Positions 14,973-23,433 of a DNA stretch of 64,000 nucleotides are shown piece after piece. Below the pieces are notes generated by a model. That model saw nothing but the letters and a program-made list of their open reading frames with translations, did not search any database and was not told where the DNA came from. Numbering within the stretch: position 1 is the first letter of the stretch; each line of letters begins with the position of its first letter. This DNA comes from Mycolicibacterium monacense (GTDB lineage Bacteria > Actinomycetota > Actinomycetes > Mycobacteriales > Mycobacteriaceae): assembly GCF_010731575.1 (NCBI RefSeq), contig NZ_AP022617.1, forward strand, positions 310,001 through 374,000, in the 5' to 3' direction. A program made the translations under genes and the position numbers.

Positions 14973-16256
14973 TCAGGCCTCGGCGCCTCCGGCGTCGCCG
15001 CCGGTGTTCTCGGTTCCGGTCTCCTTCTCACCGGGGTCGTTCGCGTTGTCGTCGTTGGCGTTGTCATCGTTCGCGTTCTGTTCTTCGGACGGTTCCTGCT
15101 CGGTGGTGTCGTCGCCTCCGGTCTCCTCTTCGGATGCGTCCTCCTCGAGCGTGTCCTCGAGCGTCTCCTCGTCGAGGGCTTCCTCTTCTTCGGGAGCATC
15201 CTCGTCGGGCGCTTCCTCCTGGGGAGCCTCCTCGGCAGGCGTCTCGTCGACGACCTCATCGCCGGACTTCTCGTCCACGACGGGAACACCGTCGCCCGGC
15301 TCGGCGCCCGGGCTCTGAGCCTCCTCGCCACCGGCTACCTCGGTCTTGAACGCGGCCGGAGTCACGCCCGAATCGGTGAGGTCCAGGGTCACCGTCTCGG
15401 TGGCCTCCGTCTTCGTCGACGAGACGTCGGCGACGCGCAACGCCGGCAGATCGGGCTTGAGCGCGTCGGCGATCATCTGGCGCAGGGTCAAAAACGCAGC
15501 GACAGTGCCGGATTCCGGGGTGAGAAGCCCGCCGTCGAACCCGAAACCGTTCAGCACACCGCCGACCACGACGCCCGGGATGTCGAGCACCGCGGTGATC
15601 ACGCCCGCGATGTCTCCGACGTTGGCGGCGTCGACCACGGCCTGTGCTGCGGCTCCGGCCGCATTGAACCCGCTGAACACCGGGGTGAGCACTGCGATCG
15701 CGCCGACCGCGAAAACCGTGAGCGCCTGATTGGCGACGTCGAGGACGTTCTGCGCCGTCTGCGTGATGATGCCCTGTACCGGCATCAGGAGTGCGAGCGA
15801 CGGGAAGAGGATCGGTTGCAGGAAGGCCTGCATGATCGCCGGGATCCCCTCGGCCGGGTTACCGCCGACGATCAGTTCGAACGCCTCCCGTAGATTTGCC
15901 GGGATTCCGTCGGGGTTGGTCGGATCGAGTGAGGCGACGACCCCGGTGAAGAACTCCTCGAGCGCCGGCGCCAGCGTCTCGATGTTCGCGAGTTGATTCT
16001 CGAACACCTGCTGCAGAATCGGTGCCGGGTTTTGCGCCACCGTCTGCCCGAGCACCGCGAGGTTCTCCGCCGCCTGGCCGAAGACCTCGATCCAGGTCTG
16101 GATCGGGTTGACGGCGGCGTTGAGCTCGACGCCGATCGTCGACAGCGTCGGCACCTTCGCATCGGGCAACGGCGGCGCAATCGGGCTGATCGCGATCGCT
16201 CCGGCTCCGACCAGCGCCACGCCGGCGGAGAGATACGAACGGGCTGCGATTTGCAT
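14973..16256 (-). CDS. Secreted surface protein with acidic tail, GjpA-porin-like N-terminus
   Basis: 427-aa exported protein. The N-terminus (MQIAARSYLSAGVALVGAGA, then ISPIAPPLPD) is the signal type seen in mycobacterial proteins that databases often label outer-membrane porin GjpA; I use that label only as a likeness. Residues about 40-290 are hydrophobic/amphipathic helices without catalytic motifs. The last 110 residues are extremely acidic (runs such as EEAPDEDAPEEEEALDEE, then NDDNANDD repeats). ATG 16256 with GGAG upstream. It is first of three similar-type genes in a row between lpqW and mshB, where M. tuberculosis carries Rv1167c, PPE17 and PE11. The function is unknown; cell-envelope location is likely. 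Confidence 0.8.
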   Translation of the reverse strand: MQIAARSYLSAGVALVGAGAIAISPIAPPLPDAKVPTLSTIGVELNAAVNPIQTWIEVFGQAAENLAVLGQTVAQNPAPILQQVFENQLANIETLAPALEEFFTGVVASLDPTNPDGIPANLREAFELIVGGNPAEGIPAIMQAFLQPILFPSLALLMPVQGIITQTAQNVLDVANQALTVFAVGAIAVLTPVFSGFNAAGAAAQAVVDAANVGDIAGVITAVLDIPGVVVGGVLNGFGFDGGLLTPESGTVAAFLTLRQMIADALKPDLPALRVADVSSTKTEATETVTLDLTDSGVTPAAFKTEVAGGEEAQSPGAEPGDGVPVVDEKSGDEVVDETPAEEAPQEEAPDEDAPEEEEALDEETLEDTLEEDASEEETGGDDTTEQEPSEEQNANDDNANDDNANDPGEKETGTENTGGDAGGAEA

Positions 16257-16722: not shown

Positions 16723-19700
16723 TTACTCCGAGGCGGAGCTGGAGCTGGCGGACTCCTTCTTCTTCGAGGAGGTGTCAGCCGATTCCTTCTTCGTCGACTC
16801 GCCGGCCGGCTTCTTGCTACCGCCGACAGCGTTCTCGATGTTCTTCCGGACCCCGTCGAGGTTCTTGCGGGTCTGGTTCGCCGCTCCCTCGAGGTTCTTG
16901 CGGGTCTGGTTCGCGGCCCCCTCGAGGTTCTTGCGGGTCTGCTCCGCGGCCCCCTCGAGGTTCTTGCGGGTCTGGTTGAGACCGTCGTTGACCTGCTTGC
17001 CCGCGGTGTCGAAGGCCTCGCGCAGCTGCACCTGACCCTTCTGGATCTGCTTCTGCAGGTCGGCCACCGGCGCGGGAGGAGCCGGCAACACCGGGTTGAC
17101 CTTCACCTCAGGCAGCTTCGCCTCGGCGGCCGGTGCCTTCTCTTCGACGGGGGCCGTGGCCACCGACAACGTCCGGGACTCCGGCGCGATCCGGGTCGAA
17201 GTGACCTCCGGCGACGCGACCTCACCCGTACCGGCGCTCAGCGTGTTGATCCCGCCGCCGAGCTCACCGCCGATGCTGCCACCGAAACCACCCAGCGCCC
17301 CGCGGATGGCGCCACTGATCGCGGCGCTGATGGCACCGCCGATGTTGACGTCACTCGCGGCCTCGGCGAACGCGTTCACCGCGGCGTAGATACCGGCGCC
17401 GATGGCCTGGAGCGCATCGTTGCCGTTCTCCAGGGCCGACACCGCCGTGGCGCGGAACGCTTCGACGACGGCGTCGGCCGCCGCGGCGAAGTTGTTGACC
17501 GCGTCGACACCGATCTCGGTGATGGCATCCGCCGCCGCACCGAACTGCGCACCGGCTTCGGCGAAGGAGCCGACGAACTCGGCGGGCGTCGGCAGGCCTT
17601 CCAGGCTCGCGCCGATCGCGGCGGAGATCTCTCCGCCGATCTCGGCGAAGCCCTCCAGCGCTGCGGCACCCAGGTCGAGGCCCGCTTCCAGGCCGGCCTG
17701 CAGTGAGGCGCCGAGGTCGGCCAGCACCGGTCCGAGCGAGGCGGACGCCTCGATCAGGGCGCTGATGAAGACCTCCGGGCTGGGCAGGTTCTCCAGGGCG
17801 GCCTCGAACGCGGCGGCCAGGGTGCCACCGCCCTCGACCAGGGCCTCGAGGAAGCCACTGAACGCGGCGCCGCCGATGTCGATGCCCGACTGGATGGCGG
17901 CGGTCAGCGCGGCCGACAGGTTGCCGATGGCCTCGGCAGTCGCATCGGCGATCGCGTTGAAGCCGGGTGCGAAAGCCTCGATGGCGCCCTCGATCGCGGC
18001 GACGAACTCCGCCGGGGTCGGGAAGCCCTCGAACGCCGCGTTGAAGGCAGCTGCCAGTTCTGCTCCGGCATCGAGGAGCACGTCGGCGATGAGCCCCGCG
18101 TCCAGGTCGATGCCGAGGTCGACGATGAGCTCCAGCGCCGCCTCGAGGGAGGCGCCGAGGTCGACGTCGATCGCACCCAGTGCGCTGACGAGGGCCTCGA
18201 CGAACGCCTCCGGCGTCGGGAACGCGCTCAGCGCGGCCTCGAACGCCGCGGCCAGCTGGCCGCCCGCGTCCTGCAGTCCGGCAATGACCGCCTCGAAGGC
18301 CGTCTCGCCGGCCTCGATGCCGGCTTCGATCGCGGCCGTCAGCGCGCTCGAGAAGTTCGCGATCGCCGTGCCGGTGGCATCGGCCAGCGCGGTCAGCCCC
18401 GGGATCACACCTTCCAGGGCCGCCTCGAAGGCGGCGACGAACTCCGCGGGTGACGGGAAGCCTTCGAGCGCGGCATCGAAGATCGCCGCCAGCTCCGCAC
18501 CCGCTTCGGCGAGGGCCTCGCCGAGCGCGGTGGCGTCCAGGTTGAGCCCCAGCTCCACGAAGACCTCGAGCGCGGCGTCGATGGCGCCGGCCAGGTCGAC
18601 GTCGATGGCCCCGAAGGCCGTGACGAGGGCGTCGATGAACGCCTCGGGCGTCGGGAAGGCCTCGATGGCCGCGTTGAACGCCGCCGCGAGCTCACTGCCC
18701 GCGTCGAGCAGACCCGCGACGATGGCGTCGAACGCCTCCACTCCGGCGGCGAAACCGGTCTCCAGCGCCGTCGTCAGGGCGCCCGAGAGATCGGCGATCA
18801 CCTCGGCGGTGGCCGCGGCGAGCGCGTCGAAGCCCGGGACGACGCCCTCGAGGGCGGCGTTGAAGGCGGCGATGAACTCTTCCGGAGTCGGGAAGCCTTC
18901 CAGCACACCGTTGAACAGTGCGGCGAAGTCGGCCCCGGCCTCGAGGAGCGCGTCGGCGATCGCACCGGCGTCCAGGTCGATGCCGAGCTCGACGAGCGCC
19001 TCGAGCGCGACGTCGAGCGCGGCGCCGAGGTCGACGTCGATGGCGCCGAAGGCCGACACCAGGGCGTCGACGAACGCCTCGGGCGTCGGGAAGGCCTCGA
19101 TCGCCGCGGCGAACGCGGCGGCGAGCTCACCCCCGGCGTCCTGCAGCGCGGCGATGACGGATTCGAAGGCGTCCAGACCCGCGGCGAAACCGGCCTCCAG
19201 GGCGCCCGACAGCGCACCCGACAGTTCGGTGAACGCCTCGGCGGCGGCTTCGGCGAATGCGTTGAAGCCCGGGACGAGTCCGGCGATGGCGGCGTTGAAG
19301 GCGGCGAAGAAATCGGCCGGGGTCGGGAACCCCTCGATCGCACCCTCGAACACGGCGGCCAGGTCGGCGCCGGCCTCGATGAGAGCCTGGGCGATGGCCG
19401 TGGTGTCGAGTGCGAGGCCGATGTCGACGAGCGCCTCGAGTGCGACGTCGAGCGCGGCACCCAGGTCGACGTCGATGGCGGCGAACGCGTTCACCAGCGC
19501 GTCGAGGAATGCCTCGGGTGTCGGGAAGGCCTCGATCGCCGCGGCGAACGCGGCGGACAGATCGCTACCCGCGTCCAGCAGGCCGGTGACGATCGCGTCG
19601 AACGCCTCGATGCCGGCAGCCGCGCCCGCGTCGATGGCCGCGGCCAGCGCACCCGACAGCTCGGTGAGCGATGCGGCGGCGGCTTCGGCGAACGCGTTGA

Positions 19701-20778
19701 GCCCGGGCAGGACGCCCGCGATCGCGGCGTTGAAGGCGGCGAAGAACTCGGCCGGGGTCGGGAAGCCCTCGAAGACTCCCTCGAAGGCGGCCGCCAGATC
19801 GGCGCCGGCCTCGATGAACGCGTCGGCGATGGCGCCGGCGTCGATCTCGATGCCCAGGTTGACGAGCGCCTCGAGTGCGACGTCGAGGGCAGCCCCGAGG
19901 TCGACGTCGATGGCGCCGAAGGCCGACACCAGGGCGTCGATGAACGCCTCGGGGGTCGGGAAGGCTTCCAGTGCGGCGTTGAACGCCGCGGCCAGTTCAC
20001 CACCGGCGTCGAGCAGGCCTGCGACGAACGCGTCGAATGCGGTGACGCCCGCGGCGATACCCGCATCGATCGCGGCGGCGAGTTCGGCCGAGAGTTCGGT
20101 GAACGCCTCGACCGCGGCCGTGGCGACGGCGTTGAAGCCCGGGATCACATCACCGAGCGCGGCCTCGAATGCGGCGACGAACTCCTCGGGCGTGGGGAAG
20201 GCGGCCAGGGCGGCGTTGAACGCGGCCTCCAGCGCGGCCCCGGCCTCGAGGAACGCCTCGCCGATGGCGCCGGCGTCGATCTCGATGCCCAGTTCGAGGG
20301 CGGCCTCGAGCGCGACCTCGATGACGCCCGCGAGATCGAGGTTGACGGAGGCGAAGGCCGACACCACGGCATCGACGAACGCCTGCGGCGACGGGAAGTT
20401 GGCGATCGCGTTGTCGATTGCGGTCGCGAGCACACTGCCGCCGTCGAGCAGCCCTTCGACGACCGCCTGGAAGGCGTTGTTGCCTTCTTCGACGGCGCTC
20501 ACGAGTGCCGCTTCGAGGGCCCCACCCAGCCCGACGATGGCGGCCTGGGCGGCCTGAGAGGCGCTGTCCACCGCACCGCCGACCGGCGCCCACGCAGCCT
20601 GCGCGGCGGCGATCAGATCAGCCAGTGAGGACAGCGAGACATCTTCGAGCACCGCGACCATCCGGTCGCCACGAATCTGGAAGTCCGGCGGCAGCACTTC
20701 GACCGGAGCCAACGCGATCGATGTAGCGCCTACAACAGCCACACCGGCGGTCAAGTATGACCGAACAGCAACTTCCAT
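16723..20778 (-). CDS. Giant secreted repeat protein (1351 aa), Ala-rich helical repeats and basic 11-mer tail
   Basis: 1351-aa exported protein of unknown function. The N-terminus (EVAVRSYLTAGVAVVGATSI, ALAPVEVLPP) resembles those of its two neighbours. Residues about 128-1000 are six 145-residue tandem repeats and a degenerate seventh; each repeat has two related halves that begin FPTPEAF and FPTPAEF, and is Ala-rich, acidic and helical. A linker (about 1150-1240) is rich in Gly, then Pro/Val. The tail has four 11-residue repeats of QTRKNLEGAAN type and ends in KK/S/E-rich sequence. ATG 20778 with GAGGGG upstream. An extended surface adhesin or envelope-spanning protein is plausible; the Lys-rich C-terminus recalls HBHA in style only. 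Confidence 0.85.
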   Translation of the reverse strand: MEVAVRSYLTAGVAVVGATSIALAPVEVLPPDFQIRGDRMVAVLEDVSLSSLADLIAAAQAAWAPVGGAVDSASQAAQAAIVGLGGALEAALVSAVEEGNNAFQAVVEGLLDGGSVLATAIDNAIANFPSPQAFVDAVVSAFASVNLDLAGVIEVALEAALELGIEIDAGAIGEAFLEAGAALEAAFNAALAAFPTPEEFVAAFEAALGDVIPGFNAVATAAVEAFTELSAELAAAIDAGIAAGVTAFDAFVAGLLDAGGELAAAFNAALEAFPTPEAFIDALVSAFGAIDVDLGAALDVALEALVNLGIEIDAGAIADAFIEAGADLAAAFEGVFEGFPTPAEFFAAFNAAIAGVLPGLNAFAEAAAASLTELSGALAAAIDAGAAAGIEAFDAIVTGLLDAGSDLSAAFAAAIEAFPTPEAFLDALVNAFAAIDVDLGAALDVALEALVDIGLALDTTAIAQALIEAGADLAAVFEGAIEGFPTPADFFAAFNAAIAGLVPGFNAFAEAAAEAFTELSGALSGALEAGFAAGLDAFESVIAALQDAGGELAAAFAAAIEAFPTPEAFVDALVSAFGAIDVDLGAALDVALEALVELGIDLDAGAIADALLEAGADFAALFNGVLEGFPTPEEFIAAFNAALEGVVPGFDALAAATAEVIADLSGALTTALETGFAAGVEAFDAIVAGLLDAGSELAAAFNAAIEAFPTPEAFIDALVTAFGAIDVDLAGAIDAALEVFVELGLNLDATALGEALAEAGAELAAIFDAALEGFPSPAEFVAAFEAALEGVIPGLTALADATGTAIANFSSALTAAIEAGIEAGETAFEAVIAGLQDAGGQLAAAFEAALSAFPTPEAFVEALVSALGAIDVDLGASLEAALELIVDLGIDLDAGLIADVLLDAGAELAAAFNAAFEGFPTPAEFVAAIEGAIEAFAPGFNAIADATAEAIGNLSAALTAAIQSGIDIGGAAFSGFLEALVEGGGTLAAAFEAALENLPSPEVFISALIEASASLGPVLADLGASLQAGLEAGLDLGAAALEGFAEIGGEISAAIGASLEGLPTPAEFVGSFAEAGAQFGAAADAITEIGVDAVNNFAAAADAVVEAFRATAVSALENGNDALQAIGAGIYAAVNAFAEAASDVNIGGAISAAISGAIRGALGGFGGSIGGELGGGINTLSAGTGEVASPEVTSTRIAPESRTLSVATAPVEEKAPAAEAKLPEVKVNPVLPAPPAPVADLQKQIQKGQVQLREAFDTAGKQVNDGLNQTRKNLEGAAEQTRKNLEGAANQTRKNLEGAANQTRKNLDGVRKNIENAVGGSKKPAGESTKKESADTSSKKKESASSSSASE
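16855..16986 (-). repeat. Four 33-bp tandem repeats coding an 11-residue motif
   Basis: Four head-to-tail 33-bp units begin at 16855, 16888, 16921 and 16954 and encode QTRKNLEGAA plus one variable residue. An 11-residue period gives a three-turn amphipathic helix (as in LEA and apolipoprotein repeats), here with Arg/Lys-Asn-Leu-Glu on one face. The near-identical DNA suggests recent expansion. Confidence 0.9.
17353..20397 (-). repeat. 435-bp (145-aa) coding tandem repeats, six full plus one degenerate
   Basis: Units begin at 20397, 19962, 19527, 19092, 18657, 18222 and 17787 on the minus strand, exactly 435 bases apart each time, with no indel. Units 2-4 are most alike (AIDVDLGAALDVALEAL is identical in three); units 1, 5 and 6 diverge, and the seventh keeps only the LPSPEVF and LPTPAEF landmarks. 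A half-unit precedes unit 1. The constant length argues for selection on a fixed structural module. Confidence 0.9.
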
Positions 20779-20821
20779 GACATCCCCTCAGAGTCAAAAA
20801 CAGCCCGACGGAGCAAAACAT

Positions 20822-20840
20822 ACCTGAGAACTACCTAAGT
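20822..20840 (-). promoter_or_regulatory. 19-bp direct-repeat box, MprA-box-like, upstream of the giant gene
   Basis: On the gene strand the site reads ACTTAGGT, AGT, TCTCAGGT: two related 8-base subunits with a 3-base spacer, about 44 bases before the ATG at 20778. The 19-base two-subunit architecture is what has been described for the envelope-stress regulator MprA. The same arrangement occurs at 23027-23045. The MprA link is an inference from pattern. Confidence 0.5.
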
Positions 20841-21794
20841 AACAAAGCGATCTACGCCTTTTTCTATGACTGTTTTCTAAGGAGCTGGACAGCGTTTGCC
20901 TGACCCTTCGCGATGCGAATTAGCCTCGACGGTGATGGCAAGCAAATCAAGGCGTGAACGGCAAATTCCGACGGGATCCGGGCCGTCTCCGGATGCTACG
21001 GAACGCGCCACGTGAACAGCGGTCGCCAAGATTGCTGAGATCGTTGAATGGGGAAGTTTAACCAGTACAGTGGCGCCAGTGTGACCGACAGGCGCTGTTG
21101 CCGAATCTGTGTTCTGATGCACACTTCCGGTGCGGCATCCCAGGCGTGGGTCCGGAGCGCTCGCGAATGCGGCGTTTCAGCAAGGGTCCGTCGCGGATGT
21201 GGGCGTTTCCGCAGCTCTTCGCTGATTCTCGGGTTACCGGGGAGTTGGCGACATGGCCCCGCGGCGGATCCGATGCGGCGCCGGCCGGCCCGACGGGGTG
21301 GGTGCTGCAAGCACGCCGACGGGCGTAACGCGACGCGACCCGCCGTCGATTCCACTCGTGATGCTGCTGCTAGCGGACGTGTTTTGACGCCGACGAAAGT
21401 GGGTATCTGTCCAGCGCTTCGTTCGCATGGCGGCACCCGGAGGGGGAGGTTTATCCTGTCGGTTCGGTCTATGTGCCTCGTGTCGAAGCTCCAAGTTCGC
21501 GCCCGCTGAGGCGCTATTGAGAAGACGTTGCTGGCAGGTAGCTGACGGGCAAATTCTGCTCGCTTAATGGATTAGCCACCTTGTCAAAGATCTCCGAATC
21601 TGAGAAGCAGCTGAGTCGCTCAGTTAACTTCTTTTAGCCGCACGCAGCGAACAGTCAGGTAGGCGGCACAAACGCGTTCACGAGGGCTTGCTGAACGTCC
21701 GGGTGCGCTCCGTCGGGGGCCGCTCCGGGCCCGCGCGGGAGCCAACACGCGCACGGCACAGCGAGTCGTCACAGTGACGATTCGAGACGGCTAC
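20841..21794. other. Long intergenic region between two surface-protein genes
   Basis: About 950 bases. Open frames on either strand here (for example 21048-21509 plus, 20996-21436 minus) have unusual composition rich in Cys and Arg, no ribosome site and no family likeness, and I do not call them genes. The stretch next to 20841 is AT-rich and probably holds the promoter of the giant gene. TCGTCAC-A-GTGACGA at 21766-21780 is a perfect 7+7 palindrome just beyond the stop of the next gene. The rest may be decayed or inserted sequence. Confidence 0.4.
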
Positions 21795-22985
21795 TTACTT
21801 TTCAGAGTCGGTCTCGCGGTCGACCGTTGTCTTGTCGTCAGCCGGGGAAGACGCGTCATTCGTGGATCCGGGGGTGGGCTGCTTGCCGCCGGTGGTGTCG
21901 CCTTGTCCGCCCGCGTCGCCGGCCTGGTCGCCGTCTTTGGCGGGGGTGGTCTTCTTGCCGCCAGTGGTGAACCGCTTGATCGTCGAGTGGAAGTTGTCGA
22001 TGCCCTGCTGAACGCCCTGCTGAACCCGGACGCCGAGCTCACGCGCCAACTCACCGGGTTTCGGCAGTTTGGGAGCTCCCGGTTGCGTCGTCGCACTCGG
22101 AGTGTCGGACTCCCCGTCGGGATCGACCTCGAGTGCCGGTAGCGGCACCTCCAGGTCTGTACCGGACTCCACCTGCTGGGGTTTCGCGCCGACTGCCGAT
22201 GGCGGTGTGACGCCGTCGCGGATGTCGACCACGACGCCGTCCACGGTCTGGTCGACCTGATCGATCAGGCCGCCTTCCTTACCGAGTGGCTTCGGCAGAT
22301 TCCGGATCAACGCGCGAATGAGCGGCTTGAGCGCGCTCTCGGCGAAGGCCTTGTCGATCGCCTCGATGCCGGTGAGTTCAGGATCCCCTACCAGGAGAGC
22401 GCTGAGCGGTTCGACGATGAGTCGGTGCAGCGCCTCGATCGGCCCCATTTCCCCGGTGAGCAACCCCGTCGCAACCTGCTTCATCAGCACGAACGCCACC
22501 GCAGGAACCAGGGTGACCTGCTTGACGAACGTGATGCCGGCCTCGCCGAAGCTGGTGCCGATGTCGGTCAGCGCTCCGACGACGCCCTCGAGCGTCTCGC
22601 TGGGGACACCGGGCGGAATCGTTGTGTTGGGGACGAGCGTCCGCTCGTGGGCCGCGGTGAACTCTTCGACCGGCAGCGCGACGGATGGTTCGGTGACACT
22701 GACGCCGGCGCTGAAAGCGGAGATCACGGAATCGCGGCCGGTGTTCGACACGTCGTTGAAGAGGCGTTGCAGTTCTTCTATGGAACTCAGCCAGTCCTGA
22801 CGGATGGCGCCGATGGATTCGAGGAACTCGGGGTCGAGGACGTCGAGCCGGTCACCGTCGGCGGTGAAGTCCGACGCGGAGACGCGGATATCGCTGGGGA
22901 GTGGGACCACGGGATTGGCCACGACCACGGCCGCACCGGACAGTACGACCCCGGTGGCCAGAAAAGGGGCGATGGCCCGCCGCAT
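21795..22985 (-). CDS. Secreted surface-type protein, third of the cluster
   Basis: 396-aa exported protein. The ATG at 22985 (MRRAIAPFLATGVVLSGAAV) is chosen because GGAGGG lies just upstream and a signal peptide begins directly; the longer open frame to 23057 would place the leader motif inside the gene. The signal is followed by VVPLPSDIRVSASDF, comparable to PVEVLPPDFQIRGD in the giant neighbour. Residues about 60-270 are helical, then a Pro/Asp/Thr-rich linker and a Lys/Asp/Gly-rich tail (TTGGKKTTPAKDGDQ). No enzyme motif is visible. Likely an envelope protein of the same broad family as its two neighbours. Confidence 0.8.
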   Translation of the reverse strand: MRRAIAPFLATGVVLSGAAVVVANPVVPLPSDIRVSASDFTADGDRLDVLDPEFLESIGAIRQDWLSSIEELQRLFNDVSNTGRDSVISAFSAGVSVTEPSVALPVEEFTAAHERTLVPNTTIPPGVPSETLEGVVGALTDIGTSFGEAGITFVKQVTLVPAVAFVLMKQVATGLLTGEMGPIEALHRLIVEPLSALLVGDPELTGIEAIDKAFAESALKPLIRALIRNLPKPLGKEGGLIDQVDQTVDGVVVDIRDGVTPPSAVGAKPQQVESGTDLEVPLPALEVDPDGESDTPSATTQPGAPKLPKPGELARELGVRVQQGVQQGIDNFHSTIKRFTTGGKKTTPAKDGDQAGDAGGQGDTTGGKQPTPGSTNDASSPADDKTTVDRETDSEK

Positions 22986-23026
22986 GGCGCCCTCCCCACG
23001 TGCGCAGCGTTCAATCGGTAAAGAGT

Positions 23027-23045
23027 AGCTGAGACTGACCTGAGA
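23027..23045 (-). promoter_or_regulatory. 19-bp direct-repeat box, MprA-box-like, upstream of third surface-protein gene
   Basis: On the gene strand: TCTCAGGT, CAG, TCTCAGCT. The two 8-base subunits differ at one base and have a 3-base spacer, 42 bases before the ATG at 22985. The second subunit of the box at 20822-20840 is identical to the first subunit here, and the spacing to the start codon is nearly the same, which supports shared regulation. Confidence 0.55.
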
Positions 23046-23433
23046 ATACAGCAGCATGAAATGGTTCTTTCCTGAGAATGTCGCTGCACACGTTTAGAAA
23101 CCGACCGGCGCGGGCTCGCGTGCAGGGCGGTTGCCGGGTCATCCGCTCGGCGTCGGTTGATCGTCTCGAAATCCTTGATCTCCCTTCACGTCTCGATCAT
23201 GAGGCATCGTGTGCCGACGGAACATTGCTGTGATTGCAGATGTCGATGATTGCGAAAAGACAATCATTTGTGCCTCACGCGCAGCCGGCCCGCCTTACCA
23301 GCGAAAAGGGCGAACATCCGTATTCAAGGAACATCCGGCGAATAGGGCGGGTCGTCGGGTGTAAATGTTCGCCGATTCGGCGGTCGCGTGCGTCATCTCG
23401 GCGCTGCGGGCCGTTGGCGTAGATTCACCGCTG
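23046..23433. other. Intergenic region upstream of mshB
   Basis: About 390 bases between the leader box of the third surface gene and mshB. It contains AT-richer pieces (around 23215-23275, with GATTGCGAAAAGACAATC as an 18-base inverted-repeat-like string). It presumably carries divergent promoters. No gene is supported; the short open frames lack starts with ribosome sites. Confidence 0.4.

Follow-up and report, generated by a model that had tools for sequence, protein, structure and literature searches.

In Corynebacterium, PS2 is described as an all-helical, acidic coat protein with a C-terminus that is anchored in the mycomembrane (PMC12021427). PorA and PorH of Corynebacterium are alpha-helical mycomembrane proteins of 45 and 57 residues, described as pore-forming, O-mycoloylated hetero-oligomers (PMC12632848). 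In mycobacteria, binding of anionic phospholipids is reported for the basic C-terminal region of PE_PGRS3 (PMC8007152) and for the basic tail of HBHA (PMC6176652). Giant1-5 of Apilactobacillus kunkeei, with 3,000-8,000 residues, are described as having a signal peptide, a long rod of imperfect alpha-helical repeats, and a separate C-terminal part (PMC12863079). The window analyzed here, 64,000 nucleotides of Mycolicibacterium monacense (NZ_AP022617.1, positions 310,001 to 374,000), contains a gene on the minus strand (20778-16723) that encodes a repeat protein of 1351 residues, P0001.

P0001 resembles PS2 in its predicted all-helical build, its acidity (an isoelectric point, pI, of 4.25 in PS2 and 4.05 in the units), its presumed N-terminal signal, its separate and putatively anchoring C-terminus, and its mycomembrane host. 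PS2, in contrast, has 498 residues, forms a lattice, and carries a hydrophobic helix at its C-terminus, and the source reports it only from Corynebacterium (PMC12021427); P0001 has an array of six units, followed by a basic tail. The two are compared by description; sequence searches of the PDB gave chance-level rows only, and the presence of the PS2 chain in the searched copy was unchecked. PorA, PorH, and Giant1-5 are likewise likened by description, and Giant1-5 differ in being Asn-rich, in ending with DUF5776, and in belonging to an unrelated lineage. PE_PGRS3 and HBHA are mycobacterial surface proteins with a basic C-terminal region, a likeness drawn by description. Their N-termini and bodies are different, and P0001 had no match to the PE domain (PF00934) at E 10. 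GjpA (NF033942, named outer membrane porin GjpA in NCBIfam, cutoff 100 bits) has about 58 N-terminal residues and the genus in common with P0001, and one GjpA-like member adjoins the repeat gene. Its family model is without a repeat array, a base-free body, or a basic tail. Literature searches on GjpA, helical outer-membrane proteins, PE repeats, and M. doricum turned up no paper on the repeat protein. The GjpA-type start, the base-free body, the distribution in three clades, the stable six-unit array, the helical models, and the likeness to giant PE proteins are new here.

P0001 is tentatively read as an all-alpha scaffold or coat that is exported, associated with the mycomembrane, and tethered by its basic tail, with a probability of about 40%; we infer both its location and its function. 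The gene begins with ATG, and a sequence resembling a ribosome-binding site, GAGGGG, was read 5 bases upstream (20784..20789, minus strand, as are all features of the gene below). Seven unit starts, at residues 128, 273, 418, 563, 708, 853, and 998, are exactly 145 residues or 435 bp apart, as the first-pass annotation had reported without stating the strand. Tandem Repeats Finder described the array with a period of 435, 5.5 copies, 76% matches, 0% indels, and a score of 1612. The 145-residue repeat stands for six full units, which are 54-75% identical in pairs. These are unit 1 (residues 128-272, 19963..20397), unit 2 (273-417, 19528..19962), unit 3 (418-562, 19093..19527), unit 4 (563-707, 18658..19092), unit 5 (708-852, 18223..18657), and unit 6 (853-997, 17788..18222), recognized by their heads and by a hidden Markov model (HMM) of the unit. 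The seventh is degenerate, with 14-16% identity in the fixed register and 41.7 bits to the unit HMM, as against 207-227 for the full units. It reaches to about residue 1139 and, with a Gly-rich stretch, makes up residues 998-1180 (17239..17787). A profile of this C-region aligned with the unit profile at 99.6% (reversed, 22%), and residues 999-1139 are a decayed unit.

Each unit consists of two halves, of 66 and 79 residues, headed by FPTP-like motifs (FPTP, FPSP, LPSP, LPTP). The heads are at residues 128, 194, 273, 339, 418, 484, 563, 629, 708, 774, 853, 919, 998, and 1062, and their spacing alternates between 66 and 79 residues, with a last spacing of 64. The kinship of the halves, also proposed earlier, was borne out by a profile-profile probability of 98.1%, as against 19.7% and 30.4% for reversed profiles. 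The halves being related, a half-unit of about 70 residues is the basic module. An extra half-unit of the second-half type precedes the array (residues 49-127, 20398..20634), where positions 67-144 of the unit HMM match residues 49-126 with 34.5 bits. The ratio of nonsynonymous to synonymous substitution rates was 0.13-0.27 for the whole protein against four relatives, and changes fell mainly at third codon positions; purifying selection thus acts on the gene. An open reading frame (ORF) of 1051 residues lies antisense to it (17402-20557, plus strand). GC-rich codon usage is its most likely origin, because stops in the antisense frame require the rare codons TTA, CTA, or TCA.

After the array, a Gly/Pro-containing linker was read in the sequence (residues 1181-1268, 16975..17238). 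It is followed by four 11-residue repeats of the QTRKNLEGAAN type (residues 1269-1312, 16843..16974) and a Lys/Ser-rich end (residues 1313-1351, 16726..16842). The repeats are encoded by a 33-bp array of 3.8 copies with 91% matches in Tandem Repeats Finder, and QTRKNL occurs at residues 1269, 1280, 1291, and 1302. Thus, the tail is built as the first-pass annotation described it. The tail matched the apolipoprotein family PF01442 with 23.3 bits over residues 1240-1327, below the Pfam gathering score of 90.

Residues 40-1108, a run of 1069, contain no Lys, Arg, or His. Among 23 other ORFs hand-picked from the window, the longest such run is at most 135 residues, in a GjpA-like neighbor. The relative P0008 has a similar run of 1128 residues without Lys or Arg. 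The repeat region of P0001 is 29% Ala, and the mean hydropathy of its units is +0.94. Hydropathy shows a helical periodicity near 100 degrees in both the body and the tail. The calculated pI is 4.05 for the units and 9.58 from residue 1201 on (the last 151 residues). As a conjecture, the lack of basic residues may help the protein through translocation or protect it from trypsin-like proteases.

The predicted structures are helical as well. AlphaFold modeled residues 36-1180 as all helix, with a predicted local distance difference test score (pLDDT) of 48.8 and a predicted template modeling score (pTM) of 0.27. Two adjacent units, which the first-pass annotation had recommended modeling, were run with 16 further residues (418-723). 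The best of five models reached a pLDDT of 72.9 and a pTM of 0.58, with seven helices in the first unit and six in the second, and the other four had a pLDDT of 36-46. Neither the long nor the two-unit model, at low to middling confidence, contains a strand such as a beta-barrel porin would call for. Fold searches recognized no known fold. The 145-residue unit fits no family in Pfam, NCBIfam, or the PDB, which agrees with the earlier statement that no named domain has it. Sequence searches of solved structures gave weak rows only (best E 0.01 and 0.35), and a third gave none at E 1.

The start of P0001 suggests export. Its hydrophobic N-terminus of GjpA type (residues 1-48, RSYLTAGVAVVGA..IALAP; 20635..20778), taken as the export start, was assigned by profile match and column conservation. 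In profile-profile alignments, residues 1-58 of the repeat proteins align with GjpA-like proteins at 98.5% and residues 1-56 with GjpA at 95.2%; reversed controls of the N-terminal profile gave 0.2-5.4% overall (2.6% and 5.4% for GjpA). Because these profiles align, the repeat protein appears to have its export start in common with GjpA-like proteins, and export to an envelope location is plausible. The pattern R[SP]Y.(T)AGVA.VGA..IA..P[VI] is conserved in 52 GjpA-like N-termini from the fetched loci and the window. These were chosen by the motif R-[SPA]-[YF]..G, and the conservation of its columns follows from that choice. In 51 of the 52 motif-selected rows, the hydrophobic stretch is followed by a proline, where cleavage would be expected. 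The conservation exceeds that of an ordinary signal peptide, and the N-terminus may be a sorting signal.

The GjpA model matches 68 of 98 genomes in a sample of the genus, 29 of them above the cutoff, and none of 14 control genomes. The M. monacense genome itself has one GjpA above the cutoff and five lower-scoring paralogues, including the downstream neighbor of the repeat gene. Two genomes (G022 and G069) gave 22 and 21 match rows, some of which may be fragments of one gene; this suggests a large expansion of GjpA paralogues in both.

The repeat protein was found only in Mycobacterium sensu lato. Protein searches gave 15 relatives and a profile search 16, including a single new one. At E 0.001, 33 of 148 genomes of the genus matched P0001, many of them only in the N-terminus or through repeats of PE proteins, and the repeat body was found at E 1e-4 in 14 of 146. 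In a wider family survey, 26 of 401 genomes matched, all in one of 31 genera. Five of these match in the repeat body and the others within the first 131 model positions. These counts are lower bounds, because few candidates (4, 2, or up to 15) were scored per genome. All 25 loci from a scan of named genomes are labeled Mycobacterium or Mycolicibacterium, with carriers that include M. komossense, M. pinniadriaticum, M. litorale, M. rhodesiae, M. vinylchloridicum, and M. sphagni.

A tree built from the first 275 residues (27 rows, with M. litorale L100 left out) has three clades, named A, B, and C here. Each lies on one side of a well-supported branch, and M. komossense stands apart. The number of units is fixed in clade A. 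All seven proteins of clade A (the window, L094-L097, P0002, and P0003 of M. doricum) have six units of 145 residues, and those of clade B (P0004, P0006, P0009, P0012, L119, and L120) have four. Clade C has units of 136 residues, 7-9 of them in eight of eight loci, and separately 7 in P0005 and P0010 and 8 in P0008. The M. komossense protein has six units. Of 75 listed unit pairs, 53 were used (A3), and the unit profile drew on 110 of 130 available units. Between the window protein and P0002 and P0003, units at the same position are 72-86% identical and units at different positions 44-70%. Since same-position units are the most alike between species, the six-unit array predates the species split, and the array of clade A is old and stable.

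GjpA-like genes flank the repeat gene in the window. Downstream is W427 (14973..16256, minus strand, 427 residues), which matches NF033942 with 53.4 bits, below its cutoff. Upstream is W420 (21795..23057, minus strand, 420 residues, or 396 from a later ATG), residues 1-68 of which align with the GjpA-like set in hhalign at 87.7% (reversed, 0.1%). In the window, L094, L096, and L097, the order is mshB, the W420-type gene, the repeat gene, the W427-type gene, a gene for a solute-binding lipoprotein, and typA. The lipoprotein gene is probably lpqW by synteny. L095 has the same order, with mshB cut by the end of the locus. The repeat gene occupies the same mshB-lpqW-typA interval in M. doricum (L125) and in clade B (L119 and L120), with a ClC-type channel gene inside the interval in L120. 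With tblastn at E 1e-5, no W427-type gene was found at these three loci, and W420 gave a 26-residue match in L125 and none in L119 and L120. The GjpA-like neighbors were rejected as obligate partners; they are absent or decayed in M. doricum and were not found at L119 and L120. The repeat gene and W420 are separated by about 1 kb with no evident gene (20779-21794), and the two are probably not one transcript. W427 ends in a strongly acidic low-complexity tail (14973-15300, minus strand) with a pI of 4.05 over the last 140 residues and short tandem repeats of 12-30 bp. The repeat protein has a tail of the opposite charge. Rfam gave no matches on the window at gathering level.

The principal rival to a scaffold is that P0001, as a relative of GjpA, could be a mycomembrane channel, with hydrophobic amphipathic helices lining a pore alone or with the GjpA-like neighbors. 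This is unlikely. Its N-terminus is common to a family that NCBIfam names a porin, its units are more hydrophobic than the bodies of 7 GjpA proteins (0.33-0.56), and mycomembranes do contain helical pore-forming proteins, PorA and PorH (PMC12632848). However, the unit profile aligned with GjpA-like proteins at only 16.4% and with GjpA at 10.0%. These scores are above the reversed controls (0.2-0.4%) and would allow a very distant relation of the bodies, yet they are too weak to claim one. NF033942 had no match at E 10 in P0001 or in the relatives P0002, P0005, P0008, and P0010. On the octanol scale, 1% of 19-residue windows in the units favor membrane insertion, compared with 17-31% in three relatives. 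Finally, the M. doricum genome (G002) keeps the repeat protein without any GjpA match.

It is less probable still that P0001 is a binder or shuttle of hydrophobic nutrients such as lipids and hydrocarbons, with a helical body that would hold apolar ligands as they cross the envelope. The 136-residue-unit genes and the M. komossense gene are located elsewhere, beside genes for lipid or coenzyme A (CoA) catabolism, at three genomic sites. L099 has two acyl-CoA dehydrogenases, a P450, and amidohydrolases, and L101, L103, and L121 have the same layout by eye. M. komossense (L098) has a thiolase and a FadB/FadJ-like enzyme, and M. litorale (L100) a thiolase. The apolipoprotein-like tail would fit a shuttle too, but its match is far below the cutoff. 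Lipid-catabolism genes are common in mycobacteria, the argument from this neighborhood is weak, and the genes of clades A and B instead sit between mshB and lpqW/typA.

The first-pass annotation supposed that a change in repeat number would alter the length of an exported, probably exposed protein. At the species level, at which copy numbers were compared, this is not supported for the units of clade A, which are constant and orthologous by position; length does differ among the 136-residue-unit relatives, in which the units are near-identical. The tail is more variable within clade A, where a regular expression that misses variant copies in L094 counted 2 to 7 copies of the 11-residue motif; M. 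doricum (L125:8109-12191) has 7 and the window protein 4. Matches stop at or near the contig end in draft genomes L106 and L109-L118, as expected if near-identical units break assemblies. A surface adhesin tuned in length by repeat number is the least probable reading: a tandem array in a probably exported protein, the 7-9 units of clade C with adjacent identities up to 98%, the many draft contigs that end inside the repeat gene, and a basic tail as in HBHA (PMC6176652) favor it, but six units in seven of seven clade-A proteins with positional orthology, window units that have diverged (76% matches in DNA), and no adhesin domain in P0001 in Pfam and NCBIfam searches speak against it.

A scaffold or coat is favored by the N-terminus in common with GjpA-like proteins, the analogy to PS2 and to the basic tails of PE_PGRS3 and HBHA, the helical periodicity and models, the base-free body, the contrast in pI, the hydropathy, the fixed units, and the GjpA-like flanks in the window and in L094-L097. 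The GjpA-type N-terminus would carry the protein across the inner membrane, towards the outer envelope. About 15 half-units (one leading, twelve in six units, and two degenerate), each with three to four predicted helices, would pack as a long, acidic body with a hydrophobic core and no basic residues, on or in the outer envelope. Past the linker, the basic amphipathic helices and the Lys/Ser tail would bind anionic envelope lipids or wall polymers.

Several points weigh against this scaffold. The localization is itself one that we infer, and confidence in the structure is low, with a pLDDT of 48.8 in the long model and one good two-unit model of five. The base-free run is broken in P0002, where 219 residues lie between two Lys/Arg residues, and in other relatives, so that the base-free body is a tendency and no rule. 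Acidity is not general, because the 136-residue-unit proteins have few acidic residues. Columns that are acidic in clade A mostly have N, Q, T, or A in those proteins, with a correlation of 0.78 in column hydropathy; polar positions keep their pattern between the two groups, and charge is not kept. The tail is unlike between clades, with Pro-rich repeats in clade C, and it is without the hydrophobic anchor helix of PS2. The body needs no GjpA-like neighbors, given their absence or decay in M. doricum and the failure to find them beside the clade-B copies.

Two giant PE proteins (PF00934) in Mycobacterium genomes, of 3474 residues (L122:4199-14620, minus strand) and 2574 residues (L123:6972-14693, minus strand), have long Ala-rich helical repeats that are loosely like the unit. 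In hhalign, these repeats aligned with the unit profile at 92.7% (reversed, 0.4%). Summed hmmsearch scores were 38 to 149 bits, and reversed, shuffled, and 8-residue-block controls were all negative. However, three of six 20-residue-block shuffles scored 18-24 bits with one of the two models, and the real proteins did no better in their best single stretch (17-24 bits). A two-unit profile found no giant PE protein at E 1e-4, and a protein search that started from L123 was empty at E 0.001. The link to the unit is thus weak. It is doubtful, though conceivable, that giant envelope proteins of mycobacteria have a base-free helical module in common that follows either of two unrelated starts for export, a GjpA-type N-terminus or a type VII PE domain, and that forms an S-layer-like scaffold independent of PS2. 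If true, one kind of helical coat would reach the mycomembrane by two routes.

The repeat family is a well-bounded case of how mycobacteria may build and anchor outer-envelope proteins, with an export start common to many paralogues, a body that is in no searched family library, and a basic tail that can be separated from it. Should the protein prove to be a surface scaffold, helical coat proteins of the envelope would extend beyond Corynebacterium, and some of the diversity in envelopes among environmental mycobacteria could be due to it.

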